The notes under the pieces were generated by a model. It was not told where the DNA came from and searched no databases. It saw only the letters and a list, made by a program, of their open reading frames with translations. The position numbers and the translations under genes were made by a program. Positions 1,166 to 22,098 of a DNA stretch of 36,512 nucleotides are shown piece after piece; the first letter of the stretch is position 1; each line of letters begins with the position of its first letter. The stretch comes from Candidatus Peribacteria bacterium. Its GTDB lineage: Bacteria > Patescibacteriota > Gracilibacteria > Peribacterales > Peribacteraceae. The DNA lies in the NCBI GenBank assembly GCA_018652265.1, contig JABICL010000023.1, forward strand, positions 1 to 36,512. The letters are read 5' to 3'.

Positions 1166-1669
1166 TTATTGAACTTCTTCTTCCTCTGGCTCAGGAAATT
1201 CTGCTGGAGCTTCTCCTTCTTCTGCGACCTGACACCTTACGTCCCCTTCTCTATCTACGCACATAACATCAGTTTTTCTGTCTTCATCGGTGTCAAAGAA
1301 GCAACAAACCCTTGTCTTCGAACATTTTTCTCCAGTTTCTGCACAATCTCTCTGGCATGCATTATTTCTACATAAGAAATTATTTCCACAATCAGCATCT
1401 TCTTCACATTCCATACTACATACACCAGGCACATCTTTAGTAGCATTCTTACATATAAGACCATCTATACAGTTTTTTGTTTTCCAACATTGTCCATTTC
1501 TCTCTTGATTTTCAAATACTAGCCTTTCAGCTTTTTTTGCTTCTTCTACTTTCTCACTTCCTTCAGGACCATCAGAACTTTCTATTTGCCAAGAAGTAGG
1601 ACTACTACATGCGGAAATAAAAATTATTAATGAAAGATACGACACGATCTTCGCAATTTTGCGATTCAT
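1166..1669 (-). CDS. Cys-rich secreted lipoprotein, unknown function
   Basis: A 167-residue protein. I chose the ATG at 1669, giving a lipoprotein signal: basic MNRK, a hydrophobic stretch, then a lipobox ending ISAC with Cys21. The open frame extends 30 codons upstream into the neighbouring gene, but that extension is Ser/Thr/Trp-rich and would bury the signal. The mature part has an acidic linker and then about 14 cysteines in roughly 85 residues, with spacings such as CxxxxxCxxGLxC and CxxDxDCGxxxxC that recall small disulfide knots of the Dickkopf or WAP kind. The tail is Glu/Pro-rich. It should sit on the outer face of the membrane. It follows the DUF378 gene by 29 bases on the same strand, so the two probably form an operon. 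Function not recognised. Confidence 0.8.
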   Translation of the reverse strand: MNRKIAKIVSYLSLIIFISACSSPTSWQIESSDGPEGSEKVEEAKKAERLVFENQERNGQCWKTKNCIDGLICKNATKDVPGVCSMECEEDADCGNNFLCRNNACQRDCAETGEKCSKTRVCCFFDTDEDRKTDVMCVDREGDVRCQVAEEGEAPAEFPEPEEEEVQ

Positions 1670-1698
1670 AATAAAGATTGGGGAAAATCTAATAAAAA

Positions 1699-1983
1699 TT
1701 ACATTGGAGGCATGCCACCACCTTGTGGAGGTTGTGGTGCTTGAGGAGGAGTTGCACATGAGCCGCTCTCGCAGGATCCTTTTTTACAACATCCGCACAT
1801 AGCAACTAAGCCCATAACACCAGCAGCACCAACTGCTATGTATACGATTCTTTCTATCATTGGAAATGATCCAACCAATGCAGAAACGAGATTAAAATCG
1901 AAAAGTCCTACAAGTCCCCAGTTTATGGCACCAACCAAAACTAGAACTTTGCAGACCTTACAACAACAACTTTTTTTACACAT
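1699..1983 (-). CDS. DUF378 family small membrane protein
   Basis: A 94-residue protein with two membrane spans. The first contains the DUF378 hallmark (VLVGAINWGLVGLFDFNLV) and the second is IERIVYIAVGAAGVMGLVAM. Both ends carry extra cysteines (KKSCCCKVCK at the N-terminus, CGCCKKGSC after span 2) plus a Pro/Gly-rich tail. These Cys clusters are not part of the usual DUF378 core and might bind metal or anchor disulfides; that is inference. The family function is unknown. It is probably co-transcribed with the lipoprotein downstream. Confidence 0.85.
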   Translation of the reverse strand: MCKKSCCCKVCKVLVLVGAINWGLVGLFDFNLVSALVGSFPMIERIVYIAVGAAGVMGLVAMCGCCKKGSCESGSCATPPQAPQPPQGGGMPPM

Positions 1984-2010
1984 AAATTGCGTGGTTAAGA
2001 ATTAATAAGA

Positions 2011-2033
2011 CTTAAATGATTATCGTATTTAAG
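2011..2033. promoter_or_regulatory. Inverted repeat upstream of DUF378 gene
   Basis: CTTAAAT and ATTTAAG are perfect 7-base arms separated by nine bases. The repeat lies 27 bases upstream of the DUF378 start on the minus strand, a position suited to an operator. No regulator is known, and an AT-rich palindrome of this size could arise by chance. Confidence 0.25.
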
Positions 2034-2116
2034 CTTCAGCATGTAAATGGCGTATATGTTGACTGATTTGGCAAATGTTTAATATTTTATATAAGATAAA
2101 TTCAGGTATTTTGTTG

Positions 2117-2122
2117 TATAAT
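2117..2122 (+). promoter_or_regulatory. -10 box (TATAAT) for tRNA-Gln
   Basis: A perfect TATAAT lies 12 bases before the first base of the mature tRNA, about where a -10 box would sit for a very short leader. No good -35 sequence is seen at 16-18 bases upstream. Confidence 0.45.
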
Positions 2123-2134
2123 GACATGGAACAA

Positions 2135-2209
2135 TGGGGAGTAGCCAAGTGGTAAGGCAGCGGGTTTTGATCCCGTCATTCGGGGGTTCGAATCCCTCCT
2201 CCCCAGCCA
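2135..2209 (+). tRNA. tRNA-Gln (anticodon TTG), CCA encoded
   Basis: A full cloverleaf can be drawn. The acceptor stem is TGGGGAG/CTCCCCA, the D-arm is GCC AAGTGGTAA GGC, the anticodon stem closes the loop TTTTGAT (anticodon TTG, reading CAA and probably CAG), and the T-arm is GGGGG TTCGAAT CCCTC. The discriminator is G, followed by an encoded CCA. The overall sequence closely matches bacterial tRNA-Gln. Confidence 0.97.
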
Positions 2210-2224
2210 AGTTGAATTTAAAAC

Positions 2225-2266
2225 AAAACCCGATACGGTCGTCCTAGAGGACGAGTATCGGGTTTT
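2225..2266. terminator. Long hairpin, probable bidirectional terminator
   Basis: AAAACCCGATAC (2225-2236) pairs perfectly with GTATCGGGTTTT (2255-2266). Inside, TCGTCC and GGACGA form a second stem around a TAGA loop, with a GG bulge. On the plus strand it lies just after the tRNA and ends in TTTT. On the minus strand the trailing sequence is GGGTTTTGTTTT, a better U-tract. It may therefore end both the tRNA transcript and transcripts coming from the radical SAM side. Confidence 0.8.
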
Positions 2267-2559
2267 CCAGAAAGAGTAACATTGGATCATCTCTGCCTTG
2301 CCTTCCGATTTGAAAAAACGAAAGACGCGCCGTAGACCACGATTAACACAACGAGTACTAATATTGTTTCCCTCATGTCCTATTTGCCCTTCCCTTTCTA
2401 TGTAAGTGAAGGATGTAAGAGAAGCATGAAACCCACAAAATCATTGCAACAGGATCTTTGGATAGCAATTCGAACATCATATTTACCCTTGTATTCAGAA
2501 GGAACGAAACTCTTTTGTACATTAGAGCACTTAGTTAAAAGGATGTCCAATATTTTTGT
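2267..2559. other. Gene-poor interval; possible 29-codon membrane peptide on minus strand
   Basis: No convincing gene is seen in this interval. On the minus strand, 2376 to 2287 reads as a 29-residue peptide: MRET, a hydrophobic span (ILVLVVLIVVYGASFVF), then the basic tail SNRKARQR. That layout suits a tiny single-pass membrane protein, and it precedes the minus-strand-competent terminator. However, its stop is TGA, which no confident gene in this window uses, and 17 hydrophobic codons can arise by chance. A 62-codon plus-strand frame at 2375-2563 has no recognisable features. Confidence 0.3.
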
Positions 2560-3450
2560 CTAAACCGACACATACTGTCCACAATTACTCCCTATCTCGT
2601 TTTCTTCGAGCTCTCCTATGCTCACTATCACATCAAACCCCTTACTTTTTAGATCAGAAACTAATACGCCTACAGAAGATTCATCATGTGGATCTAGGGC
2701 ACTGCTGAGATCATTTTTCTCTGCATTTCCTGTGGGATTAAGCGGAGTTAGTTTTACCAAGAATTTATCTGGAGAGAAATGTTTTTCTATTACATCTGCT
2801 TCTACTGGATAATCTTCCATCATTACAAAATTCAAAGTGATTTTCCTATCTCCCGGAACATAAAAAGACTCCCCATACTCCCCTATCTCCTCAAAGGACA
2901 TTTTTGGAATTGGGATTAGAACATCCCTTTTATCCATATCAGTCGTATGTATAGAGAACTGCATTTGGAACTTTCCATCACCATATAATTCATTTTTTAT
3001 ATCTCTAAGAGGATCAAAGAATTTCATATAATTCTGAGGTCCTATACTAGAAACCGAAGGAATTATATTCGGAGCATCATATCTGATCGGAAGCTCTCTA
3101 AGCACTTCTAGAACTGCAGAATTGAAAGCTGGCTCCCCCATCCTAGTAAATTGAATCTTGAATTTCTCTGTATCTACTTTTCCTTCAGGAAATCTCTTAT
3201 CTACCAAATAATCTATTTGTTCTAAGATTTCATCTTTTGTCATTTTTCCACTAAATTTCTTACCAGCATCACACATCAGACATCTTGCAGGGCAACCTAC
3301 TAGGCATGAAATTATGATCACCCATTTTTCCTTACGTGTAAGCGGTGGTTGAACTGATTCTGCAAATTCAATCTGGCCTTTTTCCAGCTCTGCAATGTAA
3401 ACCTTAGCCAATTCATCCTTGCCTACTTCTCGTATTATTTTCACTGGCAT
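2560..3450 (-). CDS. RlmN/Cfr-like radical SAM protein
   Basis: A 296-residue radical SAM enzyme. The 4Fe-4S motif CxxxCxxC is at Cys53, Cys57 and Cys60 (GCPARCLMC). The rest follows the RlmN/Cfr plan: the SAM-binding segment TRMGEPAFN, the SIHTTDxDKRDVLIPIP segment matching the SLHA...R..LMPI motif, KLTPLNPTGN, and a C-terminal GSNCGQ whose Cys290 aligns with the methyl-carrying cysteine of RlmN. The family methylates C2 or C8 of adenosines in 23S rRNA or tRNA. Two differences stand out. The protein lacks much of the N-terminal accessory domain. The second catalytic cysteine, normally seven residues before the cluster, is Ile46; the nearest cysteine is Cys49. It may be a paralog with another substrate, so I do not call it rlmN. 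Confidence 0.82.
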   Translation of the reverse strand: MPVKIIREVGKDELAKVYIAELEKGQIEFAESVQPPLTRKEKWVIIISCLVGCPARCLMCDAGKKFSGKMTKDEILEQIDYLVDKRFPEGKVDTEKFKIQFTRMGEPAFNSAVLEVLRELPIRYDAPNIIPSVSSIGPQNYMKFFDPLRDIKNELYGDGKFQMQFSIHTTDMDKRDVLIPIPKMSFEEIGEYGESFYVPGDRKITLNFVMMEDYPVEADVIEKHFSPDKFLVKLTPLNPTGNAEKNDLSSALDPHDESSVGVLVSDLKSKGFDVIVSIGELEENEIGSNCGQYVSV

Positions 3451-3519
3451 AAATTACCATCTGTTAGCCATTTTTCCTATATTTCTGGTAAGATTATCGA
3501 TATTCAATGTGAGCAATAT

Positions 3520-3532
3520 TACAATTTACAAT
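3520..3532 (+). promoter_or_regulatory. Possible -10 boxes just before the first pilin gene
   Basis: Two overlapping TACAAT boxes (3520-3525 and 3527-3532) end 7 to 14 bases before the ATG at 3540. If used, the transcript would have almost no leader. No Shine-Dalgarno is visible. The next gene has TATAAT in the same relative place. Confidence 0.3.
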
Positions 3533-3539
3533 AAACAAT

Positions 3540-4490
3540 ATGAATATATATAAGCATCACAAGGGATTTACTCTAATAGAACTGGTGCTTGCAATTGGAA
3601 TAATGTCTGCGCTCGCAGGAATAGTTGTATCTACAATCTCTCCCGCAGAAACGATGCAAAAAGTAAAAGACCTTGGAAGAAAGAGTGATTCCAAACAAAT
3701 GCAAACTGCTCTTTTTCAGGTATTACTAGATCATGGTAGTCATGATGATTTTAATTTCCCAGAAGGAGAAGATAATGCAAAGCCAATTTGCAAACCGGGT
3801 ATAGATAGTACTGAATGTACAAATCTTGGCGGATTAGTTTTATCCGGTCTTTCAGAACACATTACAGAAATTCCAATAGACTCAATTATCCCAGAAGATG
3901 AAAAATGCACAGGTTATATGGCTTACCAACACGCAGGTAGAGTGCATGTATTTTCTCCAAACTTAGGAAAAAGATCTGGTGACTCTCCAGAAGGCACTTG
4001 TAGTTCAGAAGAAGAATCTGGCGGATCATCTTCATCTTCCTCAGAAAAAGAATTTTGTTTCGAATCTTGTATAACAGACCTAGTCTCCAAAAATAATGGA
4101 AGCGTAGGAGATATAGCAATCTCACAACCTTATGAATCCGATACAATAGATATAAATTTGAAAACTGATGAAAATTGGCATTTGATCAAATCTTATTTAG
4201 ATTTAGCTCTAGATATTGGAAACATTCCTGTGAATAACAAAAATAACCCTAAGCTGAGTAAATTTAAATATAATGAAACTCATAATCCAAAAGCACAAGA
4301 ATACACATACGAAATAGATTCATCTGAATTTACCTGTGGAAATGAATATTTCTTTGCAATTAATTCAAATACACACAAATATATAAATGGAAAAAGGAAA
4401 AAGAAAGATGTCTCCTGGGGAGATGGAACGAGCTTTGGTGGAACTAATGGTGCTACTTATTTCTCGTGCACCATAGATTGTTGCGAATAA
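3540..4490 (+). CDS. Prepilin-like secreted protein, short paralog
   Basis: A 316-residue protein with a type IV prepilin N-terminus: HHKGFTLIELVLAIGIMSAL. Cleavage is expected after Gly9, with Phe10 becoming N-terminal and Glu14 at +5. Residues to about 145 form a pilin-like head with the Cys pairs PICKPG...ECTNLGG and a CTGYMAY segment. A Ser/Glu-rich linker (about 150-170) leads to a C-terminal domain from about 173 with an FCFESC start, FKYNETHNPKAQEYTYEID, SWGDGTSFGG, and a CxxDCC end. Both the head and the C-terminal domain recur in the next gene. It would be handled by a prepilin peptidase and type IV pilus or type II-like assembly; no assembly genes are in the window. It may be a minor pilin or adhesin tip. 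Confidence 0.85.
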   Translation: MNIYKHHKGFTLIELVLAIGIMSALAGIVVSTISPAETMQKVKDLGRKSDSKQMQTALFQVLLDHGSHDDFNFPEGEDNAKPICKPGIDSTECTNLGGLVLSGLSEHITEIPIDSIIPEDEKCTGYMAYQHAGRVHVFSPNLGKRSGDSPEGTCSSEEESGGSSSSSSEKEFCFESCITDLVSKNNGSVGDIAISQPYESDTIDINLKTDENWHLIKSYLDLALDIGNIPVNNKNNPKLSKFKYNETHNPKAQEYTYEIDSSEFTCGNEYFFAINSNTHKYINGKRKKKDVSWGDGTSFGGTNGATYFSCTIDCCE

Positions 4491-4539: not shown

Positions 4540-6360
4540 ATGAAGAAATTTAATTCATTTATAGAAATAAAAAATGGCTTCACTCTGCTAGAAATCATAC
4601 TTGCAACGGGAGTAATGTCTGTTTTGGCTGGAATAACTATTGCCACAGTTGCTCCAGGTGAAATTTTTTTGAAAGTAAGAGATGCAGAAAGAAAGCATTC
4701 AGCAAAACAAATCGAAAATGCCTTACATCAAATACTAGTGGATTATGATAGCTATGTTACAGGAGTGACATCAATTCCTAGTGGAGAAGAAAATGCAAAA
4801 CCCATTTGTAAAGAAGGTGTAAGTGCCACGGATTGCAATAGCCTTGGTGCGATATCTTTATCTAACCTATCAACAGAATATATTGCAGAAATTCCTGTCG
4901 ATCACATTATATCGGAATCTGAGCAATGTACGGGGTATATGGCTTATAAATTAGTCGATAGAGTACATGTATTTTCTGCGAATTTAGGAAAAATACCAGA
5001 AAATGATCCAGATGGAGTTTGTGGAGGACCATTGTGTGGCAATGGCACAATCGATAATGAAGAGGAATGTGATGATGGCAATGACATAGATGATGATGTT
5101 TGCAACAATTCTTGTGAAACTTCGTGTGGTAATGGAATTTTGAATTCAGGAGAATCATGTGATGATGGAAATACATCTAATTCAGATGGGTGTTCATCTA
5201 CGTGCGAATTGGAAACAACATTTACATGTAGTGGAGAGCCTAGCTTTTGTATAAGTACAAATAGTCTAGATGCATATTGGCCAATGGATGAAGGATCTGG
5301 AGAATATATAAACAATTCTTTGGGATCAGGCAATCTAGCACGCAAAAGCTCTTGGGCACACTGGGTAACAGATGTACCATCAAATACAAATAGTAATTAT
5401 GCATTAGATTTGCGATCTGGAGCAGGATATTTATGGGTAAATGGAACTTTTCCACTAATGGATGGAGATCAGACCTTTATGATTTGGGCAAAGCCAAAAT
5501 ACTCTAGTGGAACCAGATGGCTATGGTCTGACCTTGGTTATTATAATGATAGCAAAAGTATGATTGGAATAAGATTCAAAAATTATAAATTTGAAATGGT
5601 AGCGAAAGATGATTATGCAAATTCTGCTATTGCATCTACAAATACATTGGAATTAAACAATTGGTATCATATAGCTGGAGTAAAGGAAGGAAACAGTGTA
5701 AAAATTTATTTAAATGGCGCTTTGCAGGATTCAGATACAGGATCACCAAATTCATTAGGCACTATAAATACAAATGGAAATACGACACCTTCAATTGGCA
5801 GAGCAGCAACATCAGGAGGAGTTTTCCCTGGAACAATTGATGAAGCAATGGTTTATAGTCGTGCTTTAAGTGATCAAGAAATATTGAATATATATAATGG
5901 GCCAAACGGTTCATCATCTGAATCTACAGAAGATGACTTCTGTTATGAACCATGTACTACCACATTCTTTGCAGGGCAAACTATAGATGTGGGAGATGTA
6001 ACTGTGTATCAGACATCAGGATCAAATGATGTATATGTTAAATTTGCAACCGAGGATGATTGGGAGATAGAAGAAACGCAAATGCATTTTGGCGAAAATG
6101 TAAGCAATATACCGCAAACCGGCGGAGGGAATCCAAAGCCTGGACAATTTGATTACAAACAAGAACATAGCCCAGCAGTACAAGAATATATTTATACAAT
6201 TGATGAATCTGAATTCACATGTGGAACAGATTATATTTTTGCAGCACATGGAGATGTAATTTCACCAGGAGAATCAGAAGGTGCCTGGGGAGATGGTAAT
6301 GATTTTTCTGGCCCAAATTGGGCTACCTACTTCTCATGCAATATACAATGTTGCAATTAG
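4540..6360 (+). CDS. Prepilin-like protein with DUF4215 and LamG modules, long paralog
   Basis: A 606-residue protein with prepilin signal NGFTLLEIILATGVMS: Gly13/Phe14 cleavage, Glu18 at +5. Residues 1-155 are clearly paralogous to the preceding protein (shared ENAKPICK, CTGYMAY, RVHVFS.NLGK). Two DUF4215-type Cys modules follow at about 166-223 (CGNGTIDNEEECDDGN and CGNGILNSGESCDDGN). A LamG/concanavalin-like sandwich spans about 243-454 (LDAYWPMDEGSG start, NNWYHIAGVKEGNSVKIYLNG, ending SRALSDQEILNIY). After a Ser-rich linker the C-terminal domain (465-606) matches that of the short paralog. LamG domains commonly bind glycans or proteins, so this is probably an adhesive pilin. The DUF4215 modules match those of the giant protein downstream. 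Its TAG overlaps the stop of the convergent flavoprotein gene in the bases TTAG. Confidence 0.87.
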   Translation: MKKFNSFIEIKNGFTLLEIILATGVMSVLAGITIATVAPGEIFLKVRDAERKHSAKQIENALHQILVDYDSYVTGVTSIPSGEENAKPICKEGVSATDCNSLGAISLSNLSTEYIAEIPVDHIISESEQCTGYMAYKLVDRVHVFSANLGKIPENDPDGVCGGPLCGNGTIDNEEECDDGNDIDDDVCNNSCETSCGNGILNSGESCDDGNTSNSDGCSSTCELETTFTCSGEPSFCISTNSLDAYWPMDEGSGEYINNSLGSGNLARKSSWAHWVTDVPSNTNSNYALDLRSGAGYLWVNGTFPLMDGDQTFMIWAKPKYSSGTRWLWSDLGYYNDSKSMIGIRFKNYKFEMVAKDDYANSAIASTNTLELNNWYHIAGVKEGNSVKIYLNGALQDSDTGSPNSLGTINTNGNTTPSIGRAATSGGVFPGTIDEAMVYSRALSDQEILNIYNGPNGSSSESTEDDFCYEPCTTTFFAGQTIDVGDVTVYQTSGSNDVYVKFATEDDWEIEETQMHFGENVSNIPQTGGGNPKPGQFDYKQEHSPAVQEYIYTIDESEFTCGTDYIFAAHGDVISPGESEGAWGDGNDFSGPNWATYFSCNIQCCN

Positions 6361-8820: not shown

Positions 8821-11800
8821 ATGCTAAAAATAAAATTTAGATCAGGCATAAGTTCAGTACTTGCAACATTAGTAGTGTTTGCAACTCTTACTGGAATAAT
8901 CGCTATCACCACTTCTCAAGTAAGTGAAGATTTAAATTTAACTGCTGATGTAGTTTCCTCTGATTACTCTCTTGAATATCCGTATTGTGATACAACTGGA
9001 GATTGCACCATGGTAGATGGCACACATGTACCAGAAAATGCTAATCAGTGTTGCATTGGAGGAATGTGTGAATCTCCACTTTGTGGAGATGGAGAGATTC
9101 AGTGTAATGAAGTTTGTGAACCAGAATATTCTGAATTTGGATGTCAATTTGGTGATGGACCTGTAAATACAGGTTGGTATTGTGATCCAACAGGAAATAG
9201 TAGTGAATGTAATGCAGGAGGATGCAACACAGCAAGTAACATATGTTCAGATTGGTCTAATGGAGGCATATTCTGCACAAGTGATGATGATTGTCTAGGA
9301 TCATGTGAAATACATACTACAGACACATGCTGTAGCGATGATTGTAAAACAGATTTAACTGGCACAGATTCTTGTCCAATTTGTGGCGATGGCGTAATAA
9401 ACGGAGATGAAGAATGTGAGCCAGATGATCTGTCTGCATGTGAGGAATGGGAATACTGTGGTGGTCAAGGATGCACATGTACATCCAATCCATCGCCTTG
9501 TGGTAATGGAGAGTTAGATCCTGGTGAACAATGTGATGGGTATGACATGGGAAACTGGGATCCAGATTTATTTAGATGTGTTGAATGCGAAGCAATATTC
9601 AAGATTGCTTTATGTGGGAATGGTACTGCGGAACAAGGAGAAGAATGTGGAGAAGATCAACTACCTGATTGCAATGAATCTATAGGCGAAGCATGTAGCC
9701 AAAAATGTGAATGCGAAATGCACTGTGGTAATTCAGAGTTAGATGTTGGAGAAACTTGTGAGCCAAGCACTTCTCCACCAGTAGCATGTAATGCAGGAGA
9801 AATTTGTAATTCAGGATGTGTATGTGAATCAGATTTAAGTTGTGGAAATGGAATCGCAGATCCAGGAGAAGAATGTGGAGAGCAAGACATGGGAAGTTGT
9901 CCTAATGCAGGAGAAATTTGTGTTAGTTGCAAATGTGTAATCGGATGCGGAAATGGCAATATAGATCCAGGAGAAGAATGTGAAAACAATGATCACTGTA
10001 GTACAGGAGAAATTTGTACAGATTGTACATGCGAATCAGATGGTACATGTCCTAATGGATTTACAGATCCTCCAGATGAAGATTGTGATGATGGAAATAC
10101 TAATACATACGATAGTTGTACCAATTCATGTAAAGATGCAAAATGCGGAGATGAGATTGTATGGCATGATAACGAAGACTGTGATTATGGCGATTTTAAT
10201 TCAGACACTAGTAATTGTACTAGCTCATGTCAATTTGCAAGATGTGGTGACGGATTTACACATGAAGGAAATGAGGAATGTGATAAGGGTGACGACAATA
10301 ATTCAGACAATGCATCATGTACATCTGAATGTGAAAATGCAATGTGTGGTGATGGAAACGTATGGAATACAGACGGAGGAACAGAAGAATGTGATTACGG
10401 CCAGCTAAATAATGACTACGGACAATGTACATTATCTTGTAAAAACCCAAGATGTGGTGACGGATTTCGACAAGTTACTAATAACGAAAACTGTGACGAC
10501 GGAGATACATTAAATGGAACTCCAAATTACTGTAATGATACTTGTAGTGGAATTACAGCATCCGAATGTGGGAATGGGATTTCAGAAGAAGGAGAAGATT
10601 GTGATGAAGGAGCATCTAATTCTGATACAGGAAATTGTACAAGTTCATGTAAATTTGCAAGATGTGGCGATTCGCTTGTGCAAGCAGGAGTAGAAACCTG
10701 TGATGATGGAGATTTAAATGGCGATCCAGGCTTTTGTAATACAAGCTGTAATGGAATTACAGATCCAGACTGTGGAAATGGAATAATTGAAGGTGCAGAA
10801 GAATGCGACGAAGGAACATCTAACTCTGATACAGGAAGTTGTACTACATCATGTATGGGACCAAGATGCGGAGATGGATTTGTATGGGCGGGCAATGAAA
10901 CTTGTGATGAAGGAAGTACTCTAAATGGAACTCCAAATCACTGTAATGATGTATGCGATGGAATGACCATTCCAGTCTGTGGAAACAATATTGCAGAATC
11001 AGGAGAAGAATGTCATGACGAAGGATTAACATGCCCAGGTAATCAGCCATGTGATACATCTACGTGTAAATGTGGAGAAGATCCTTGTGGAAATGGAAAC
11101 ATAGATCCAGGTGAAGAATGTGAAACTCATGATGACTGCACAATCTCATATCATTCATGTACTGATACGTGCATATGCCAATTCCAAGATGCAAATCTAT
11201 TATGTGAAGATGGAATTATTCAACACTGGGAAAATTGTGGAGAAATAGGATTACCAGAGTGTGAAGAAGGAGAATACTGTGGAACTACTTGTGAATGTAA
11301 AGATATTGTTCCTGGATGTGGAAACTTCATAGAAGATTTTCCAGATGAACAATGTGATGATGGAGGAGCATGTCGCGGAGGAACTGCGCATGAAAATTAT
11401 ATAACAACATTGGATGAAGCAATTGAATGTATAACTGGAGGAGGAATTACTGTTGGAATAAGTGGAGATGGATGTTCAGAAATATGTCAACTAGAATCTG
11501 ATTGTGGAAATGGAATAGTAGAATTTTCTGAAGGATGTGATGATGGAGGAAAATGTGTTGCAGGAGATGCAAACAAAATTGGAAATAACTGTACAACTCT
11601 TACTGTACTTACAGACTGTGGACTTAGTGGAATATGTGAACCAGAAGAAGGAGATGGATGTGATGATGTCTGCCAAATAGATCAATGTGAAGTTATAGGA
11701 AATGTAACTGGAGTAGATGCATATGTAATGTCTCTATATAACTTAGGAAAATTTGAAGAAGGCATGTACAACGCAAATGTATATGAATATTCAGAAAATC

Positions 11801-14800
11801 CATGGGATCTACCTTGGTTTGATGATGACTACATGACCAGAACAAACTTATATGCACCAAAAGATGTAGGAGCAAATATTCTAGGACAATCAATAACAGG
11901 CATAACAGAAATCCCATTTGTAGGTCCTGTAGACAATCTACCACATGACCCTGCTTACTTTGCAGCTAAATGGGAAGGAGTACTAAATGTTCCATCACTT
12001 GGAGAATATGATTTCCACTTCGGCTCCAGAGATGATGCATGGGTAGTTTTAGATGGTAACGTAATTGCAAGCCATACAGGCACTCACTTAACCGTAGAAG
12101 ATCAGGAAGGATCTATAGTTTTACAACCTGGTAGTTATAATTTAGAAATTTATTATTCTTCTAGAAGTCCTTATCAGTGCAATGTCGCTATCGAAGATAA
12201 CTGTACAGACACTGTAGATAATGATGGAGATGGCGCAACTGACTGTAATGATTTTGATTGTATAAATGACACTGCATGTCAGATTACACAAATAAACGAA
12301 AATGATCTTCCTCCTTTGCTTGTCACAACTGGAAATGACGAAGAAGGATTTGCCGCATCAATATGGAATGTTATTACAAAAATATTTGGAAGTATTTTTG
12401 GATCAGATTCTAAGTTAACGGCAGAACTTATCGGCATAACAACAGGAAATGACTATGCATGTAGTAATAGATCAGATGATGACGGAGATGGATTAATAGA
12501 TTGTGCAGATCCTGGATGTAGAGATGATTCATTATCAGGATGGCAAATGCGAACAGTATCTTCAGAAAATTATAATGGTGATGATATAACATCTGCAGAT
12601 ATAGACAGCGATGGAGATAAAGACATAATAGTTGCAAATAGTAGCGATAACGAAATAGTTGTATATTTAAATGATGGCAGCAGTCCACCTTGGTTTACAG
12701 CCAATGTTTTCCCTCTTGCAAATAATCATCGACCTAAAGCAATAGATGTTGGTGATTTAAATGGTGATAACAGAAAAGATATTGCTATCGCTTCTCAATA
12801 TGGTAATTCTGTTCAAATACTTATAAATGATGGAGGTACAGGACTTAATTTTCAGCCAGCACGAATAATTGATTCAATTGCATATTATGCATACGACATA
12901 GAAATAGCAGATCTAAATGATGATGGAAAAATGGATCTAGTAGTTCCACATGCGAAAGACAATGTAAATCCATCTAGATTTGCAGTATATAGAAATACAA
13001 CTTCTTCTGTTAACAATGTTTCATTTTCGAGAAGTATTTTAGATACCATTGGATCAAATGCATTTTTTACTTCCGCACACGTAGATCAATTTCGTTCTTC
13101 AGATTCTTATCCAACAATATTCACTACACTTACATCTGAAGATTTAATAGTTGCATATAAAAATTCTGGATCTTCATTTACAAGAGTAGACATACCAACT
13201 TCTGCAAATGCACCATGGTCTGTAAAAACAGCAGACATAAATAATGATGGATTAAAAGATATAGTTATGGGATCTAGATTCGATAATTCAATTTGGTGGT
13301 ATGAAATGGGTCCTGAAGGACTATCCTCTACAATGTCAGTAACCGAGCATCTCATATACGCAGGTGATAATATTTCATATCCTTACAGCATAGATATAGG
13401 AGACATCGACGCTGATGGAGATATAGATATTGTTATTGCATCCTCAGTAGATGGAAGCTTGAACCTCTTATATAACTATTCAAATGGATCTAGTTTTTCT
13501 GCTCCAAATGCATTATTTGAAGAAACTTTATCATTTGTAGATGCCGTACATATAACAGACTTTGATACTGATTCTCGAAAAGACATTATAAGCACATCAA
13601 AAAATACAGTTCGATGGCATGAATGGTTTGGACTTAATGAATGTAAACCAATGGCTGATAGCGAAAGAACTGAATGTAATGATGGCGTAGATAATGCAGA
13701 TACAGAAGATAGCTTCATAGATGCAGATGATCCTGGATGTCACATAGGAGGCAATATGAATAATCCATATGATCCAAATATATTAAGCGAAGATCACACG
13801 ATAGGATGTGGCAATGGGAAACAAGATCATATAGACGAAACCTGTGATGATGGGAATCAAGATAATACAGATGATTGCTTAAATTCATGTGAGAATGCAT
13901 GGTGTGGAGATGGATACATTGCAAACGGAAATGTACATCAAGAATATTGTGATGACGGAACATTAAATGGAACGCAAACCAACTGCAATTCAACATGTAC
14001 CGGAATTACACCGCCTCTTTGTGGAAATGGTGAGCAAGATCCAGGAGAAGATTGTGAGCAAGATAATGAGTGTAATTCAGGAGAATTGTGCCTAGGCTGC
14101 GAATGTATATCTGATGGCACCTGTGGCAACGGTTATGCAGATCTTGGAGAAGAATGTAATGATCCAGGACTAAGCTGCTCTACCGGAGAAATTTGTAATG
14201 CGACTAATTGTTTATGTGAATCAGATGGAACATGTGGAAATGGATATCAAGATCCAGGAGAAGAATGCAATGAGCCAGGATTAAGTTGTACTGACTTAGG
14301 TGAAACTTGTGATAATTCAATTTGCGAATGTACTTATGAACCTGGTTGTATGAATGGAGTAGAAGATCCTGGAGAAGAGTGTGATGATGGAAATAATATA
14401 GACGAAGATAACTGTACAAATTCCTGTAAAGACGCAATATGTGGAGATGGAGTTACTTGGAACTTAGAATCTGGAACAGAAGAATGTGATGATGGAAATC
14501 TAATACTTAGTGATGGATGTAATAATAATTGTGATCTCACAACTGAGTGTAACGATACTGTGGATAATGATGGCGATCTTCTTATAGATTCAGAAGATCC
14601 TGGATGTCACATAGATGATAATTTAACTAATCCATATGATGAAACAGATGATGATGAATCTAATTCTGAATATTGTACAAATGGATTACAAGAAGGATCA
14701 GAAGAATGTGATGATGGAAATAATGTAGATGAAGATAATTGTACAAATGCATGTGAAATTGCAACATGCGGAGACGGAGTTACATGGAATCTAGAATCTG

Positions 14801-17800
14801 GAACAGAAGAATGTGATGATGGAAATATATTTAATTCGGATGACTGCACAAGAGCATGTGAAAATGCAAGATGTGGAGACGATATTGTATGGCATTCAGG
14901 CAGTGGAACAGAAACTTGTGATGATGGTGATGCATTAAATGGCACTCCTCTTAGTTGTAATGCGGTGTGCACTGGAACTACAGAACCTGTATGTCCAAAT
15001 GGTGTCATAGAATCTGGAGAAGAATGCGACGATGACAACACATTAAATATAGATGCATGCACAGACGTATGTGAAGACGCTGAATGTGGCGATGGATATA
15101 TATGGGTAGGACAAGAAGAATGTGATGATGGAGATACATCTAATACAAATCTATGTTTGAACTCATGTGATAGAGCAAGATGTGGAGATGGATTTATATA
15201 TGCAGGAATAGAAACCTGTGATGAAGGAGACTTAGTAAACGGAACTCCAAATCACTGTAATTCAACCTGCAATGGAACAACTAATTCAGAATGTGGAAAT
15301 GGAACCCAAGAAACAGGTGAAGCTTGTGATGATGGCAATCTAGCACGAGGTGATGGATGTGATGATAACTGCAATATTACAACTGAGTGTAATGACACTG
15401 TAGATAATGATTTAGATTTACTATTTGATGCAAACGATCCTGGATGTCATACAGATGGAGATTCGTTGAATACTTTATCGTATGATTCAACTGACAATAA
15501 CGAGAGTCATACTATAGAGTGTGGGAATGGTGCAATAGAAGGATCTGAAACATGTGATAATGGTGGTGCTAATTCTAATACATCTGCATGCACTCTAAGT
15601 TGTGCAGATGCAAGATGTGGGGACTATTACATATGGACTGGAAATGAAAACTGCGATGAGGGCGATGCACTGAACGGTACTCCAAATCACTGTAATGCAA
15701 CTTGTACTGGAATTACAGGATCTGTATGTGGAAATGGAACTCAAGAATCAGGAGAGGCTTGTGATGATGGAAATCTAGTACGGGGTGATGGATGTGATGA
15801 TAACTGCAATATTACAACTGAGTGTAATGACACTGTAAATAATGACTCAGACATATTTATTGATGCTGAAGATCCAGGGTGTCACACAGATGGGCATGTA
15901 TTAAATGCAACTTCATATGATCCAAGTGATAATGATGAATTTAATCCAATATCATGTGGAAATGGTGCAATAGAACTTGGAGAAGATTGTGATGATGGAA
16001 ATCTATTAAATACAGATGCCTGTACCAATAATTGTGGAGTCGCAAGATGTGGAGATTATTACGTATATATAGGAGTAGAAACTTGTGATGACGGAGACTT
16101 AGTAAATGGAACTCCAAATCACTGTAATGCAACTTGTACTGGAACAACTGATTCAGAATGTGGAAATGGGACACAAGAATCAGGAGAAGAATGTGATGAT
16201 GGAAATCTAGTACGGGGTGATGGATGTGATGATAACTGTAATATTACATATGAGTGTAATGACACTGTAGATAATGACTCAGATACATTTATAGATATTG
16301 GAGATCCAGGATGTCACACAGATGAAAATGCAGCAAATGACGCAACTTATAGACCTACATGGGATGTTGAGGATCACACTGCTTTATGTAGAAATGGAGT
16401 AGAAGAACCTGGAGAAGATTGTGATGATGGAAATGACTTAAACACGGATGCATGTACAGAAATATGTGAAAATGCTAGATGTGGAGATGGCCATATATAT
16501 ATAGGAGTAGAAACATGTGATGATGGTGATGCTCTAAATGGAACTCCAAATCACTGTAATTTAACCTGTGACGGAATCACTTCTTCAAGTTGTAATAATA
16601 GAGTAAAAGAATCAGGAGAAGAATGTGATGATGGAAACTTAGTTGATGAAGATGATTGTACAAATGCATGTGAAGATGCAGAATGCGGAGACGGATTCAC
16701 ATGGAACCTAGAATCTGGAACTGAAACTTGTGATGATGAAAACACTACTTTGGGTGATGGCTGTGACAACAATTGTAATATTACAACTCAGTGTAGTGAC
16801 ACTGTGGATAATGATGGAGATTTGGTTGCAGACACAGGCGATCCTGGATGTCATACAGATGAAAATGCATTAAATGGCACTTCATACGATGCAACCGATG
16901 ATGATGAAACTCATGCTGCATCATGTGGAAATGGTGTAGAAGAAACCGGGGAAGATTGTGATGATGGAAATAATTTAGACGGTGATGGATGCAGTGCAGA
17001 TTGCCATGATCAATGTGCAACTGGAGATATTCCTTCTGCATTCTACTTCTTCTTTGATGATCCAGAGCTAACTGTATCCCCTACTCCTACATGTCCCGTA
17101 TGTGGTGATGGAATAACAGAAGGCAGAGAAGACTGCGAAGACATCAGTGAATGTTCTACAGGAGAAGCATGTACAAGTTGTGAATGTGTATCTGATGGAA
17201 CATGCAACAATGGATACGTAGATAGCGGAGAAGAATGTGGAGAAACAGAACTCCCTGTTTGTCCTACTGGAGAAGGATGTAATCTAGATTGTGTATGTGA
17301 AGATTTATGTGGAAATGGTGTATCAGATGCTGGTGAACAATGTGGAGAACCTACACTTCCAAACTGTACTGGAAGCGATATATGTGGAGGATGTCGATGC
17401 ATCGACACTTGTGGAGATGGAATAGTAGATTCATACGAGGAATGTGATGATGGAAATACAAACACAAATGATAATTGTACAAATTCATGCCAAGATGCTG
17501 AATGTGGAGATGGAATTACATGGGATCAAGGAGTAGGAAGTGAAACTTGCGATGATGGAAATACTTCAGATACAGATGGATGTTTAAATACCTGCCAAAT
17601 AGCAACTTGTGGAGACTCCTTTATAAGAGAAGGAGTAGAAGACTGTGAAATTGATACTGATTGTCCTGTAAACCAAGGTTGCACAGTCGACGCATGCCAA
17701 TGCATCGATACCTGCATAGGAAATACATGTGACCCAAATGAAGACTGTACATGTCCTGATTGTTATGGCGAGCAAGATGGATGTGATAATGGATATATAT

Positions 17801-20800
17801 GTGATGCAAGTTCGCAGAGCTGCACCGAAAAACCATGTGGAAATGGAAGAATAGATGCTAGAGAATACTGTGATCCATCTGTTCCTCCATCAGATAATGG
17901 CTCAAATTGGGAATGTGACACAGATAATTGCACACTCATATATACATGCGGAAATGCCCTAGAAGAACTTGGCGAGCAGTGTGATCCTCCAACAAGTTCT
18001 GGAGGCAATCAATTCTGCCGTGCAGATTGCACGATAGATGCATGTGCAATTGTAGATTTACATAGTGGAAATGGATTTATAGGAAGCTACTTCAATATGC
18101 CATCATGGCATTATGGAATGGACGATAACACAGTAAATGGTCCATCAGACCCTGTACCAGATCCATACCTGTGGTTCTCAGATATATATCTAAAACGCAT
18201 AGATGAAACTCCAGCTCAAATATCTTTACCTGCACCATTCGATGGTCCAGATAATAGTATTCCTGGAGATGCATCACATCACAGTGCTATGTGGCGTGGT
18301 ACTGTAACCGTACAAAGTGGTGGAGCATATCAGTACACACTTACAACTAGAGATGATGCATGGATAGTTATAAGAGATGGATTTACAAATGTAATAGTAG
18401 ATGCAGTTACAGGCATACAAGATACTGTGAGCACTCATACAAGTAGCATTTTCCTTACAGAAGGAACTCACATAATGGAAATCTACTTCGTAAGTAGACA
18501 AGGTGGAGTTGGACTAGAAGGAACATTCTTCTTCTCATTTAACAGTGCAGGAATAGCGGTTGCCCCTTATTACCCTGGATGTCCATTCTGTGGAAACGGA
18601 TTGCAAGAACCAGGAGAGACTTGTGATGATGGATTCGTAAATGGATCTGGAGATGGCGTATGTAATTCAATATGTACTGGATTTGGCAGCGCAACATGTG
18701 GAAATGGAGTGGAAGAACCAGGAGAAGAATGTGATGATGGAAACTTAAATAACGGAGATGGATGCTCAGATCAATGTACAAATGAACCAGAATGTGGAAA
18801 TGGAGTAACAGAAGGAACAGAACAATGTGATGATGGAAACTTAACCAGTGGAGATGGATGCAGCGCAACTTGCATCTTGGAAACAGAATGTGGAAATCAA
18901 GTCGAAGAGCAAGGTGAACAATGTGATGATGGAAAACACTGCCTAGATGCAACAGGCATAACTGTAAATTGTACAAATGATAATTCTGTATGTGTCGATC
19001 CTTTGAGCTGTGATCCAGTAGATGGAGATGGCTGTTCAAGTACGTGCCAGATAGAATTAATATTATGTGGAAATGCTATAGAAAATTCAGGAGAAGAATG
19101 TGACGATGGAGGACTTTGTATTGGTGGAATTCAGAACGGCATAGGATGCACAACTCCACTTGGAGCACTTAATTGTGCTCTAAATGGAGGAAATTGTATT
19201 GCACAAAACGAAGACGGAGATAATTGTGATTCAAATTGCCAAATAGAAGTTGTACAAGAATGTGGGAATGGAATAAGGGAAAATCCTCCAGAAGAATGTG
19301 ATTATGGAACTTGCGGAACCCCACCTACATATCCATGTAATTCAGATGCTGAACCAGACATGTGTAGAACTACTTGTGATCTACCATATTGTGGAGATGG
19401 CATTAGAGATCCAGGAAATGCAGAACAATGTGATACAGGCGATGCTAGAAGCAATAGTCTATCAAATGCCTGCAGACTAAATTGCATGAATCCAAGCTGT
19501 GGAGATGGAGTGACAGATCCAATAAACCAAGAAGAATGTGATAATGGACAATTAAACAGCAATACAACACCAGACAGTTGTAGAGATAATTGCACTGAAC
19601 CTGTATGTGGAGATGATGTAATAGATACAACTCATGGAGAAATATGTGACGATGGAAACACTAATGATGGAGATGGATGCTCTGCTAATTGCCAAGAAGA
19701 AGAACCTGTATGTCCAAATGGCAATCAAGAAACAGGTGAACAATGCGACGATGGAAATATGATCAACACTGATACATGTACTGATCAGTGTGAACTTACA
19801 TTCTGTGGAGATGGTATTCCACAAAGTCCAAATGGCACAGGTACAAATGAAGATTGTGATGATGGGAATAACATCGATACTGATTCATGCAGCAACTCAT
19901 GTCAGATACCTATAGAATGTGGAAATGGCATAACAGAACCAGGTGAAGAATGTGATGATCAGAATTTAAGTGAAGACGATGCATGTAATAATTCATGTGA
20001 ATTTACATCATGCGGAGATGGCATAAGACAGATCCTAAACGGCGAAGACATAAATGAAGAATGTGATGATGGCAATAATATAAGTGGAGATGGATGTTCG
20101 GATATTTGTGAAACAGAAATTCCACCAAATTGTGGAGATGGACAAGTTCAAACAGACGAAGGAGAAGAATGTGATGATGAAAATACTGATAACACAGATA
20201 CATGTACAAATATGTGTCAGAATTCTGAGTGTGGAGATGGGCTCTTGTGGGTTGGCACAGAAGAATGTGATGATCAGAACCTCAATTTAAGTGATCAATG
20301 TAACAATGACTGCGAACTTACAAGTTGTGGAGATGGAATAATTCAATCTACAAATGGAGACGGAGAAAATGAAGAATGTGACGATGGTAATAATACAAGT
20401 GGAGATGGATGTTCGGATATTTGCGAGATAGAACCGCCAATCTGTGGAAATGAAATCTTAGAAGGAGATGAACAATGTGATGATGGAAATCTGACTGATG
20501 GAGATGGATGTTCGGATACTTGTACATTGGAAGCGGTATGTGGAAATAATGCACAAGAACAAGGAGAACAATGTGATGATGGAAATAACATAAGTGGAGA
20601 TGGATGCTCTGAAATCTGTGAACTAGAACCAACAAACTGTGGAAATGGAATACCAGAAGCAGGAGAACAATGTGATGATGGAAATACAGATGAAACAGAT
20701 GCATGTAACAATGAATGCATATTCACACTCTGTGGAGATGGAATAATTCAAAGTACAAATGGTATTGGCGAAACTGAAGAATGCGAAGATGGAAATAACA

Positions 20801-22098
20801 TAGGAACAGATGCATGCACAAACGAATGTATGAATTCAGTATGTGGAGACAATATTACACAATCTCCAAACTCAGAAGGAATTCATGAAGAGTGTGACGA
20901 TGGTGACACAAACGGATCAAATTACTGCAATACATCATGTAGAAAAACACACTGTGGAGATGGGATCATACAATCTCCAAATGCATTTGGATTAGATGAA
21001 AATTGTGATGATGGGAATCAAAATACAAATGACTCATGTACTAATTTATGCTCAATAGCATCATGTGGAGATGGAATAGTATTTGCAAATGTTGAACAAT
21101 GTGACGATGGGAATAATATAAGCGGAGATGGATGTAGCTTTATTTGTATAACAGAAGCAGGCTCTGGAACTACTCTTACAGGATCTACTCTTACAGGATC
21201 TACATTGTGTGGAAACGGAACAAAAGAAAACTACGAAGAATGTGATGATCATAATATAAATAGTGGAGATGGATGCTCTTCTAGTTGTCTGGTAGAAAAT
21301 TACTGTGGAAATGGAAGAACTGATCCAGGAGAAGAATGTGATGATGGCAACTTAAGGTCAGGAGATGGATGTAGCAGGAACTGCAAAGATGAAGTCAGTC
21401 ACATTTCAGACATAGAATGTGGAAATGGAATAGAGGAAATAGGAGAAGAATGTGATGATGGAAATCAAATAAGAGGAGATGGTTGTAATAGATGGTGTCT
21501 AGAAGAAAATGATGATGGAACTGTTATAAATGCTGGCACTTGTGGCAATGGAAGCGTAGATGATCCTAGAGAAGAATGTGATGATGGCGATCTAAATAGT
21601 GACGATGCAAATGGAGCTTGTAGAACAAACTGTAAACGAGCTCATTGTGGTGATCTGGTCATAGATCACAGACAAGGAGAGGAATGTGATGATGGAAATA
21701 GAAGAAATAACGACACATGTTCCAATCTCTGCCAGACCGTAGATGCTGTTGCCACAACTCCGGATACAGGCACAACTACTATTCCTCCTACACATGGCAC
21801 TGCTCCAACTATCACATACGACAATACTTCTAATCCAACTAGCGCATACATAGGATCACTACTCACAACTCCTCCACCTGTATACGTCGATATTCCAAAT
21901 CAAGTTACTGATCCAGTTATATATCCAGATACATATCCAAATCATGCAGATATTAATTCACAGCTTACCGACAACGCACATCATGTCGCTCCACCTGTAA
22001 CACCTGGAACAGGGCCAGGCGCAATCAGCTTGATAGTGATTGCTGCTACTGGGATATTGTTTGGGATTAGAAGACTAGTAATCAAAACTAGTCGCTAG
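8821..22098 (+). CDS. Giant DUF4215-repeat surface protein with PA14 and FG-GAP domains
   Basis: A single 4425-residue frame, extracellular and membrane-anchored by prediction. The N-terminus has one hydrophobic segment (VLATLVVFATLTGIIAIT) after MLKIKFRSGIS. By my count about 82 Cys modules of type CGNGxxExGExCDDGNxxxxDGCxxxC follow; this is the DUF4215 family, about 30-40 residues each. They are interrupted by a PA14/fibro-slime domain (about 959-1120, DDAWVVLDG), DNDGDG calcium-type loops (about 1127-1240), an FG-GAP/VCBS propeller (about 1240-1610, six or seven DxDxDGxxDI repeats), and a second PA14 domain (about 3074-3250, DDAWIVIRDG). The end has a Thr/Pro-rich stalk, then TGPGAISLIVIAATGILFG and the basic tail IRRLVIKTSR. 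Likely role: disulfide- and calcium-stabilised adhesion fibre. No LPxTG is seen. Its TAG overlaps the convergent gene by 11 bases. Confidence 0.95.
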   Translation: MLKIKFRSGISSVLATLVVFATLTGIIAITTSQVSEDLNLTADVVSSDYSLEYPYCDTTGDCTMVDGTHVPENANQCCIGGMCESPLCGDGEIQCNEVCEPEYSEFGCQFGDGPVNTGWYCDPTGNSSECNAGGCNTASNICSDWSNGGIFCTSDDDCLGSCEIHTTDTCCSDDCKTDLTGTDSCPICGDGVINGDEECEPDDLSACEEWEYCGGQGCTCTSNPSPCGNGELDPGEQCDGYDMGNWDPDLFRCVECEAIFKIALCGNGTAEQGEECGEDQLPDCNESIGEACSQKCECEMHCGNSELDVGETCEPSTSPPVACNAGEICNSGCVCESDLSCGNGIADPGEECGEQDMGSCPNAGEICVSCKCVIGCGNGNIDPGEECENNDHCSTGEICTDCTCESDGTCPNGFTDPPDEDCDDGNTNTYDSCTNSCKDAKCGDEIVWHDNEDCDYGDFNSDTSNCTSSCQFARCGDGFTHEGNEECDKGDDNNSDNASCTSECENAMCGDGNVWNTDGGTEECDYGQLNNDYGQCTLSCKNPRCGDGFRQVTNNENCDDGDTLNGTPNYCNDTCSGITASECGNGISEEGEDCDEGASNSDTGNCTSSCKFARCGDSLVQAGVETCDDGDLNGDPGFCNTSCNGITDPDCGNGIIEGAEECDEGTSNSDTGSCTTSCMGPRCGDGFVWAGNETCDEGSTLNGTPNHCNDVCDGMTIPVCGNNIAESGEECHDEGLTCPGNQPCDTSTCKCGEDPCGNGNIDPGEECETHDDCTISYHSCTDTCICQFQDANLLCEDGIIQHWENCGEIGLPECEEGEYCGTTCECKDIVPGCGNFIEDFPDEQCDDGGACRGGTAHENYITTLDEAIECITGGGITVGISGDGCSEICQLESDCGNGIVEFSEGCDDGGKCVAGDANKIGNNCTTLTVLTDCGLSGICEPEEGDGCDDVCQIDQCEVIGNVTGVDAYVMSLYNLGKFEEGMYNANVYEYSENPWDLPWFDDDYMTRTNLYAPKDVGANILGQSITGITEIPFVGPVDNLPHDPAYFAAKWEGVLNVPSLGEYDFHFGSRDDAWVVLDGNVIASHTGTHLTVEDQEGSIVLQPGSYNLEIYYSSRSPYQCNVAIEDNCTDTVDNDGDGATDCNDFDCINDTACQITQINENDLPPLLVTTGNDEEGFAASIWNVITKIFGSIFGSDSKLTAELIGITTGNDYACSNRSDDDGDGLIDCADPGCRDDSLSGWQMRTVSSENYNGDDITSADIDSDGDKDIIVANSSDNEIVVYLNDGSSPPWFTANVFPLANNHRPKAIDVGDLNGDNRKDIAIASQYGNSVQILINDGGTGLNFQPARIIDSIAYYAYDIEIADLNDDGKMDLVVPHAKDNVNPSRFAVYRNTTSSVNNVSFSRSILDTIGSNAFFTSAHVDQFRSSDSYPTIFTTLTSEDLIVAYKNSGSSFTRVDIPTSANAPWSVKTADINNDGLKDIVMGSRFDNSIWWYEMGPEGLSSTMSVTEHLIYAGDNISYPYSIDIGDIDADGDIDIVIASSVDGSLNLLYNYSNGSSFSAPNALFEETLSFVDAVHITDFDTDSRKDIISTSKNTVRWHEWFGLNECKPMADSERTECNDGVDNADTEDSFIDADDPGCHIGGNMNNPYDPNILSEDHTIGCGNGKQDHIDETCDDGNQDNTDDCLNSCENAWCGDGYIANGNVHQEYCDDGTLNGTQTNCNSTCTGITPPLCGNGEQDPGEDCEQDNECNSGELCLGCECISDGTCGNGYADLGEECNDPGLSCSTGEICNATNCLCESDGTCGNGYQDPGEECNEPGLSCTDLGETCDNSICECTYEPGCMNGVEDPGEECDDGNNIDEDNCTNSCKDAICGDGVTWNLESGTEECDDGNLILSDGCNNNCDLTTECNDTVDNDGDLLIDSEDPGCHIDDNLTNPYDETDDDESNSEYCTNGLQEGSEECDDGNNVDEDNCTNACEIATCGDGVTWNLESGTEECDDGNIFNSDDCTRACENARCGDDIVWHSGSGTETCDDGDALNGTPLSCNAVCTGTTEPVCPNGVIESGEECDDDNTLNIDACTDVCEDAECGDGYIWVGQEECDDGDTSNTNLCLNSCDRARCGDGFIYAGIETCDEGDLVNGTPNHCNSTCNGTTNSECGNGTQETGEACDDGNLARGDGCDDNCNITTECNDTVDNDLDLLFDANDPGCHTDGDSLNTLSYDSTDNNESHTIECGNGAIEGSETCDNGGANSNTSACTLSCADARCGDYYIWTGNENCDEGDALNGTPNHCNATCTGITGSVCGNGTQESGEACDDGNLVRGDGCDDNCNITTECNDTVNNDSDIFIDAEDPGCHTDGHVLNATSYDPSDNDEFNPISCGNGAIELGEDCDDGNLLNTDACTNNCGVARCGDYYVYIGVETCDDGDLVNGTPNHCNATCTGTTDSECGNGTQESGEECDDGNLVRGDGCDDNCNITYECNDTVDNDSDTFIDIGDPGCHTDENAANDATYRPTWDVEDHTALCRNGVEEPGEDCDDGNDLNTDACTEICENARCGDGHIYIGVETCDDGDALNGTPNHCNLTCDGITSSSCNNRVKESGEECDDGNLVDEDDCTNACEDAECGDGFTWNLESGTETCDDENTTLGDGCDNNCNITTQCSDTVDNDGDLVADTGDPGCHTDENALNGTSYDATDDDETHAASCGNGVEETGEDCDDGNNLDGDGCSADCHDQCATGDIPSAFYFFFDDPELTVSPTPTCPVCGDGITEGREDCEDISECSTGEACTSCECVSDGTCNNGYVDSGEECGETELPVCPTGEGCNLDCVCEDLCGNGVSDAGEQCGEPTLPNCTGSDICGGCRCIDTCGDGIVDSYEECDDGNTNTNDNCTNSCQDAECGDGITWDQGVGSETCDDGNTSDTDGCLNTCQIATCGDSFIREGVEDCEIDTDCPVNQGCTVDACQCIDTCIGNTCDPNEDCTCPDCYGEQDGCDNGYICDASSQSCTEKPCGNGRIDAREYCDPSVPPSDNGSNWECDTDNCTLIYTCGNALEELGEQCDPPTSSGGNQFCRADCTIDACAIVDLHSGNGFIGSYFNMPSWHYGMDDNTVNGPSDPVPDPYLWFSDIYLKRIDETPAQISLPAPFDGPDNSIPGDASHHSAMWRGTVTVQSGGAYQYTLTTRDDAWIVIRDGFTNVIVDAVTGIQDTVSTHTSSIFLTEGTHIMEIYFVSRQGGVGLEGTFFFSFNSAGIAVAPYYPGCPFCGNGLQEPGETCDDGFVNGSGDGVCNSICTGFGSATCGNGVEEPGEECDDGNLNNGDGCSDQCTNEPECGNGVTEGTEQCDDGNLTSGDGCSATCILETECGNQVEEQGEQCDDGKHCLDATGITVNCTNDNSVCVDPLSCDPVDGDGCSSTCQIELILCGNAIENSGEECDDGGLCIGGIQNGIGCTTPLGALNCALNGGNCIAQNEDGDNCDSNCQIEVVQECGNGIRENPPEECDYGTCGTPPTYPCNSDAEPDMCRTTCDLPYCGDGIRDPGNAEQCDTGDARSNSLSNACRLNCMNPSCGDGVTDPINQEECDNGQLNSNTTPDSCRDNCTEPVCGDDVIDTTHGEICDDGNTNDGDGCSANCQEEEPVCPNGNQETGEQCDDGNMINTDTCTDQCELTFCGDGIPQSPNGTGTNEDCDDGNNIDTDSCSNSCQIPIECGNGITEPGEECDDQNLSEDDACNNSCEFTSCGDGIRQILNGEDINEECDDGNNISGDGCSDICETEIPPNCGDGQVQTDEGEECDDENTDNTDTCTNMCQNSECGDGLLWVGTEECDDQNLNLSDQCNNDCELTSCGDGIIQSTNGDGENEECDDGNNTSGDGCSDICEIEPPICGNEILEGDEQCDDGNLTDGDGCSDTCTLEAVCGNNAQEQGEQCDDGNNISGDGCSEICELEPTNCGNGIPEAGEQCDDGNTDETDACNNECIFTLCGDGIIQSTNGIGETEECEDGNNIGTDACTNECMNSVCGDNITQSPNSEGIHEECDDGDTNGSNYCNTSCRKTHCGDGIIQSPNAFGLDENCDDGNQNTNDSCTNLCSIASCGDGIVFANVEQCDDGNNISGDGCSFICITEAGSGTTLTGSTLTGSTLCGNGTKENYEECDDHNINSGDGCSSSCLVENYCGNGRTDPGEECDDGNLRSGDGCSRNCKDEVSHISDIECGNGIEEIGEECDDGNQIRGDGCNRWCLEENDDGTVINAGTCGNGSVDDPREECDDGDLNSDDANGACRTNCKRAHCGDLVIDHRQGEECDDGNRRNNDTCSNLCQTVDAVATTPDTGTTTIPPTHGTAPTITYDNTSNPTSAYIGSLLTTPPPVYVDIPNQVTDPVIYPDTYPNHADINSQLTDNAHHVAPPVTPGTGPGAISLIVIAATGILFGIRRLVIKTSR
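13669..16863 (+). repeat. Higher-order repeat inside the giant gene
   Basis: A linker coding ECNDTVDNDxD...DPGCHTD recurs six times, starting at 13669, 14548, 15382, 15817, 16249 and 16786. The copies at 15382, 15817 and 16249 are 435 and 432 bases apart and share long near-identical stretches, such as GGTGATGGATGTGATGATAA and ACTCCAAATCACTGTAAT. This is a block of about 144 residues holding three Cys modules that was duplicated recently on top of the older single-module repeat. Confidence 0.85.
21166..21207 (+). repeat. 15-base tandem repeat in the giant gene
   Basis: GGAACTACTCTTACA, GGATCTACTCTTACA and GGATCTACATTG follow one another. They encode GTTLTGSTLTGSTL, a Thr/Ser/Gly linker between two Cys modules. 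Confidence 0.85.

Follow-up and report, generated by a model that had tools for sequence, protein, structure and literature searches.

Large, exported, cysteine-rich proteins with repeats like those of Myxococcus have been described in Peribacteria by Anantharaman et al. (2016), together with FG-GAP proteins and a sortase (PMC4736985). The cysteine-rich set forms a 14-gene cluster whose products average 1,655 aa and 7.2% Cys. These large extracellular proteins were read as attachment proteins, and the genome encodes sortase A and one disulfide-formation protein (PMC4736985). In a survey of huge proteins, Peregrinibacteria ranked with the richest bacterial phyla (PMC11573180). The giant protein analyzed here is a very large, well-formed case of the protein type already described for its probable lineage: it is large, probably exported, and cysteine rich, with Myxococcus-type repeats, FG-GAP company, and a sortase in the genome. 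It differs from the Peribacteria cluster proteins in being far longer (4,425 aa, with 9.6% Cys), in joining 82 modules, two PA14 domains, and one propeller in one chain, and in being encoded by a gene that stands alone, whereas the Peribacteria genes are clustered (PMC4736985). We consider it probable that this protein is an exported, disulfide-stabilized attachment fiber anchored in the wall or membrane.

The window, that is, the whole stretch of DNA that was analyzed, is the entire contig C15 (36,512 bases) of a 1.07-Mb genome that is in 48 contigs and was scored as 100% complete with 1.1% contamination. Some genomes of the same class have TGA within conserved frames, as Gracilibacteria do; together with the protein repertoire (PMC4736985), this would be compatible with placement in Candidatus Peribacteria/Peregrinibacteria. 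ORF reading revealed one frame with an ATG start and zero internal stops, which, as the original prediction held, occupies over one-third of the contig without being split by an in-frame stop. On the same strand, 140 bp upstream, is a gene that resembles prmC by its sequence. At the other end, a short frame running the opposite way overlaps the stop by 11 bp. This arrangement suggests that the giant gene is probably transcribed alone, as its own transcription unit. Elsewhere in the window (34923-36512), a further large surface-type protein begins, which has DUF11 repeats and is truncated by the contig end.

Table 1. Features of the giant gene and of the neighboring prepilin-type genes (nucleotide positions are those of the window)
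Feature	Nucleotides	Strand	Residues (aa)	Description
Prepilin-type gene 1	3540-4490			N_methyl (PF07963) match
Prepilin-type gene 2	4540-6360			N_methyl below cutoff in one scan, at cutoff in another; two DUF4215 modules and LamG
Giant surface protein gene	8821-22098	+	4,425 codons	466 kDa; calculated pI ~4.05
N-terminal hydrophobic segment	8845-8916	+	9-32	Hydropathy
Array A	9082-11694	+	88-958	21 DUF4215/myxo_disulf_rpt modules
PA14 domain 1	11695-12195	+	959-1125	RDDAW motif; Pfam PF07691
Two calcium-loop-like cysteine modules	12196-12540	+	1126-1240	DNDGDG/DDDGDG; pattern
FG-GAP propeller	12541-13656	+	1241-1612	Pfam FG-GAP_3
Array B	13657-18030	+	1613-3070	33 modules, with six interposed DNDxD...DPGC modules
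Interposed modules of array B			1619, 1910, 2190, 2335, 2479, 2658	DNDxD...DPGC; pattern search
432-bp super-repeat in array B	15166-16637	+		3.4 copies, 77% match
PA14 domain 2	18031-18579	+	3071-3253	TRDDAW motif; similarity to copy 1
Array C	18580-21732	+	3254-4304	28 modules
Pro/Thr-rich stalk	21733-22008	+	4305-4396	92 residues, Cys free, 37% P+T
C-terminal candidate sorting signal	22009-22095	+	TGP at 4397-4399	TGP, hydrophobic segment, RR tail

Scans with curated models matched the giant protein to DUF4215 in Pfam (E 3.5e-96; 315.8 bits against a cutoff of 27) and to TIGR02232 myxo_disulf_rpt in NCBIfam (605 bits against a 20.8-bit cutoff). Modules were counted with an HMM trained on the modules of the protein itself, with a domain E of <1e-3 defining a strong match. 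This HMM gave 82 DUF4215/myxo_disulf_rpt module starts (21+33+28), 74 of them strong; the earlier count of about 82 was thus exact. The six modules interposed in array B, with the pattern CxDxVDNDxD...DxxDPGC, had not been set apart in the original prediction. Cysteines number 424 in the whole protein, and of the 74 strong modules, 63 have exactly four, which would fit two disulfides per module. The chain contains 922 Asp and Glu residues against 114 Lys and Arg residues. Structure prediction for four consecutive modules yielded no usable model (pLDDT 43.9), the input having been 11 in-register stretches, too shallow an alignment; the rod shape of the module array is therefore an assumption.

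The giant protein belongs to the same repeat family as the TIGR02232 myxo_disulf_rpt/PF13948 DUF4215 proteins of Myxococcus and other organisms, well over the curated cutoff, and differs from them in copy number and accompanying domains. A search of solved structures returned pappalysin-2 and pappalysin-1, human metalloproteases (8sl1, 7ufg, and others) in which a single stretch, GEECDDGD..SGDGCS, matches one giant module at E 1.2e-4 and weaker. Among solved structures, this stretch is the closest counterpart of the module that was found. The pappalysins, however, combine only one module with a protease, whereas the giant protein has 82 modules and no protease domain. No mention of "DUF4215" was found in the literature searched.

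The domains between the arrays were recovered as predicted, with DUF4215, PA14, and FG-GAP all scoring over their Pfam gathering scores. PA14 copy 1 matched PF07691 (35.4 bits against a gathering score of 24; E 1.1e-8 at aa 1039-1121) and had weak PDB sequence matches to PA14 proteins. Copy 2 had no direct Pfam match and was recognized only by its similarity to copy 1 (36% identity; E 4.9e-16), in an alignment that keeps the DD of the RDDAW motif in both copies. The predicted structure of copy 1 was of low confidence (pLDDT 46), and the comparison with the PDB was limited to its core; this core matched PA14-bearing glycosidases and carbohydrate-binding module (CBM) folds, which would be consistent with a glycan-binding role. 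The propeller was represented by four FG-GAP_3 (PF13517) stretches over the cutoff (E 5.5e-25; 88.2 bits), and the DxDxDG-type loops were borne out at five sites (aa 1133, 1219, 1260, 1528, and 1580). A role in adhesion or host attachment would fit the PA14/FG-GAP content, the relatives, and the literature (PMC4736985); the predation role that had also been proposed gained no specific support.

Hydropathy analysis revealed only two hydrophobic segments in the giant protein, at aa ~9-32 and ~4398-4422. The first may be a signal peptide or an N-terminal anchor, and a pilin-like class III signal is conceivable. No curated family matched the N-terminus, and neither an AxA motif nor a clear signal peptidase I cleavage site was seen in it, so the N-terminus may stay anchored.

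A Pro/Thr-rich stalk ahead of a C-terminal segment is typical of wall-anchored proteins. The giant protein ends in such a stalk, followed by a TGPG-hydrophobic-RR terminus. Its stalk, motif, hydrophobic segment, and Arg-rich tail are common to sortase-anchored and MYXO-/PEP-CTERM surface proteins, but its motif is TGP, in contrast to the LPXTG, PEP, or MYXO-CTERM motif of those known anchored proteins. A first profile, built from the tail of the giant protein and that of one relative, matched 36 of 36 same-family genomes (G000 included), weakly in a few, such as G015 and G021; few of the 23 genomes from other families of the class matched, all of them weakly. Thirty tails have T-G-P in common, along with a pair of glycines spaced four residues apart and R-R at a fixed spacing, and nearly all of them close frames bearing DUF4215 modules. 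The C-terminal TGP-hydrophobic-RRR signal was seen family-wide in relatives G001 to G035 (for example, L072 to L100). Pfam and NCBIfam hold no curated model specific to it; against the MYXO-CTERM, PEP-CTERM, and LPXTG models, the relatives' tails scored near the cutoffs, mostly below.

This family-wide tail is the least expected item of the analysis. As a family-wide signal it is solid. The tail of the giant protein keeps the TGP and RR spacing, has no NCBIfam match, and is the only TGP-type tail found in its genome. Scores from models that contain its own sequence are circular, and the tail was therefore rescored with that sequence left out; it then reached 11.4 bits, a score attained by 14 of 1,967 architecture-preserving (head-core-tail) shuffles. 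Judged from its sequence, the tail is likely a divergent member of the family. We also entertain, at somewhat less than even chances, the idea that the family uses a C-terminal sorting signal peculiar to it, [DKQE]-T-G-P-A-A-x(7)-A-G-A-A-A-G-x-x-W-x-R-R-R, which anchors DUF4215 proteins via a sortase or other dedicated protease, the giant protein being a divergent and apparently the sole substrate in its genome.

The genome encodes one sortase, with apparent catalytic His, Cys, and Arg motifs. The giant protein thus has the architecture of a sortase substrate and a sortase in its genome, but its motif is TGP, not LPXTG, and its tail has only the low profile score given above. Every one of the 59 genomes of the class has a sortase, whether or not it has TGP tails, so co-occurrence does not identify the anchoring partner. 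The genome also encodes two exported DsbA-like thioredoxin_4 proteins, one with an N-terminal membrane segment and a CPFC motif and the other lipoprotein-like with a CPAC motif; VKOR was looked for in the same genome and was not found. Because of the two DsbA-like proteins, the dependence on oxidative folding outside the cell that had been predicted is plausible.

TIGR02232 modules were present in every one of the 35 same-family genomes searched and in 10 of the 23 genomes that belong to other families of the class. Several relatives contain open frames of 3,000 to 7,000 codons that match the PA14/FG-GAP part of the giant protein, but its domain order was not seen in any of about 115 relatives. 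The named genome contigs searched with this part gave distant FG-GAP matches only. One relative (G012:C1, ~135433-150639) contains a 7,015-codon frame that combines DUF4215 modules and FG-GAP matches with a TGP tail. The original prediction viewed the protein as a heavy investment for a reduced genome; the size of the genome agrees with this, but the investment is not exceptional, given that the module is present in 35/35 family genomes and that frames of 3 to 7 kaa occur in relatives.

The module is not confined to the giant protein within its own genome. Two adjacent prepilin-type genes lie 2.5 to 5.3 kb upstream of the giant gene, and since the second carries two modules, DUF4215 is probably present on pili as well. 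The fusion of its pilin-like N-terminus to DUF4215 and LamG suggests a pilus bearing a lectin-type domain. Contig C16 carries a further giant frame (L021), 2,629 codons long, which is rich in DUF4215 modules, differs in its N-terminus, and lacks a TGP tail. On another contig (L022, C40), DUF4215 proteins with DxDxDG repeats and membrane anchors at the N-terminus follow one another, probably as a single cluster. Related DUF4215 genes, ~72 to 97% alike in blocks, lie on three pairs of short contigs (L026/L027 on C2 and C41, L025/L028 on C10 and C37, and L023/L024 on C47 and C35). Because these contigs are related in pairs, and because C2 and C41 start within the same prepilin-like gene, the assembly breaks at a multicopy DUF4215 family; recombination or cassette variation is possible.

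The giant frame could conceivably be an assembly artefact, with chimeric or expanded repeats. Repeat arrays are error prone in short reads, and the genome is in 48 contigs. However, no exact internal repeat is longer than 54 bp and the DNA copies of the module are just 71 to 80% alike, values that make read-length repeat collapse or chimerism unlikely. Further, the frame is unbroken, its start, domain order, and terminal signals are matched, and similar giant frames are found in low-contig relatives, including one of 4,133 aa in the single-contig genome G030. We regard an artefact as highly improbable.

The protein could be mainly a protective coat, an S-layer-like or capsule-like cysteine mesh that shields the small cell, with the lectin-type domains only fixing the coat to sugars of the cell's own envelope. 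Most of its length is a repetitive module without obvious binding sites, its strong negative charge and dense cysteines would be suitable, and the absence of an orthologue with its domain order among the relatives is in keeping with such a coat. We nevertheless consider this unlikely, as the two PA14 domains and the propeller sit at defined places between the arrays and a single giant gene copy would serve a lattice protein poorly. Alternatively, the N-terminus (FRSG-ISSVLATLVVF...), in which a G precedes the hydrophobic stretch, could be a pilin-like class III signal, and the protein could ride on a type IV pilus as a tip-associated protein. The genome encodes about ten prepilin-type proteins over or near the cutoff, including the two in the window, one of which carries DUF4215 modules and LamG. 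The N-terminus of the giant protein, however, has no Pfam N_methyl (PF07963) match and lacks a Glu at position +5, a search of relatives gave no convincing homologous N-terminus, and, unlike pilins, the protein has an anchor-like segment at its C-terminus. A pilus-associated tip protein is thus quite unlikely.

In the attachment fiber that we favor, the chain would be exported through its N-terminal signal, and DsbA-like enzymes would form about two disulfides in each module. The disulfide-linked modules would make a stiff, protease-resistant rod carrying many acidic, probably calcium-binding, loops, with the C-terminus held in the membrane or moved to the wall by sortase. The PA14 domains and the propeller would bind other cells or surfaces through the glycans or proteins on them. 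Reduced-genome bacteria that are probably host dependent must contact other cells by means that are largely unknown, and one huge disulfide-knotted fiber bearing lectin-type domains offers a concrete candidate, whose domains can be tested one at a time. The family-wide TGP tail, in turn, suggests a common way of displaying module-bearing surface proteins.
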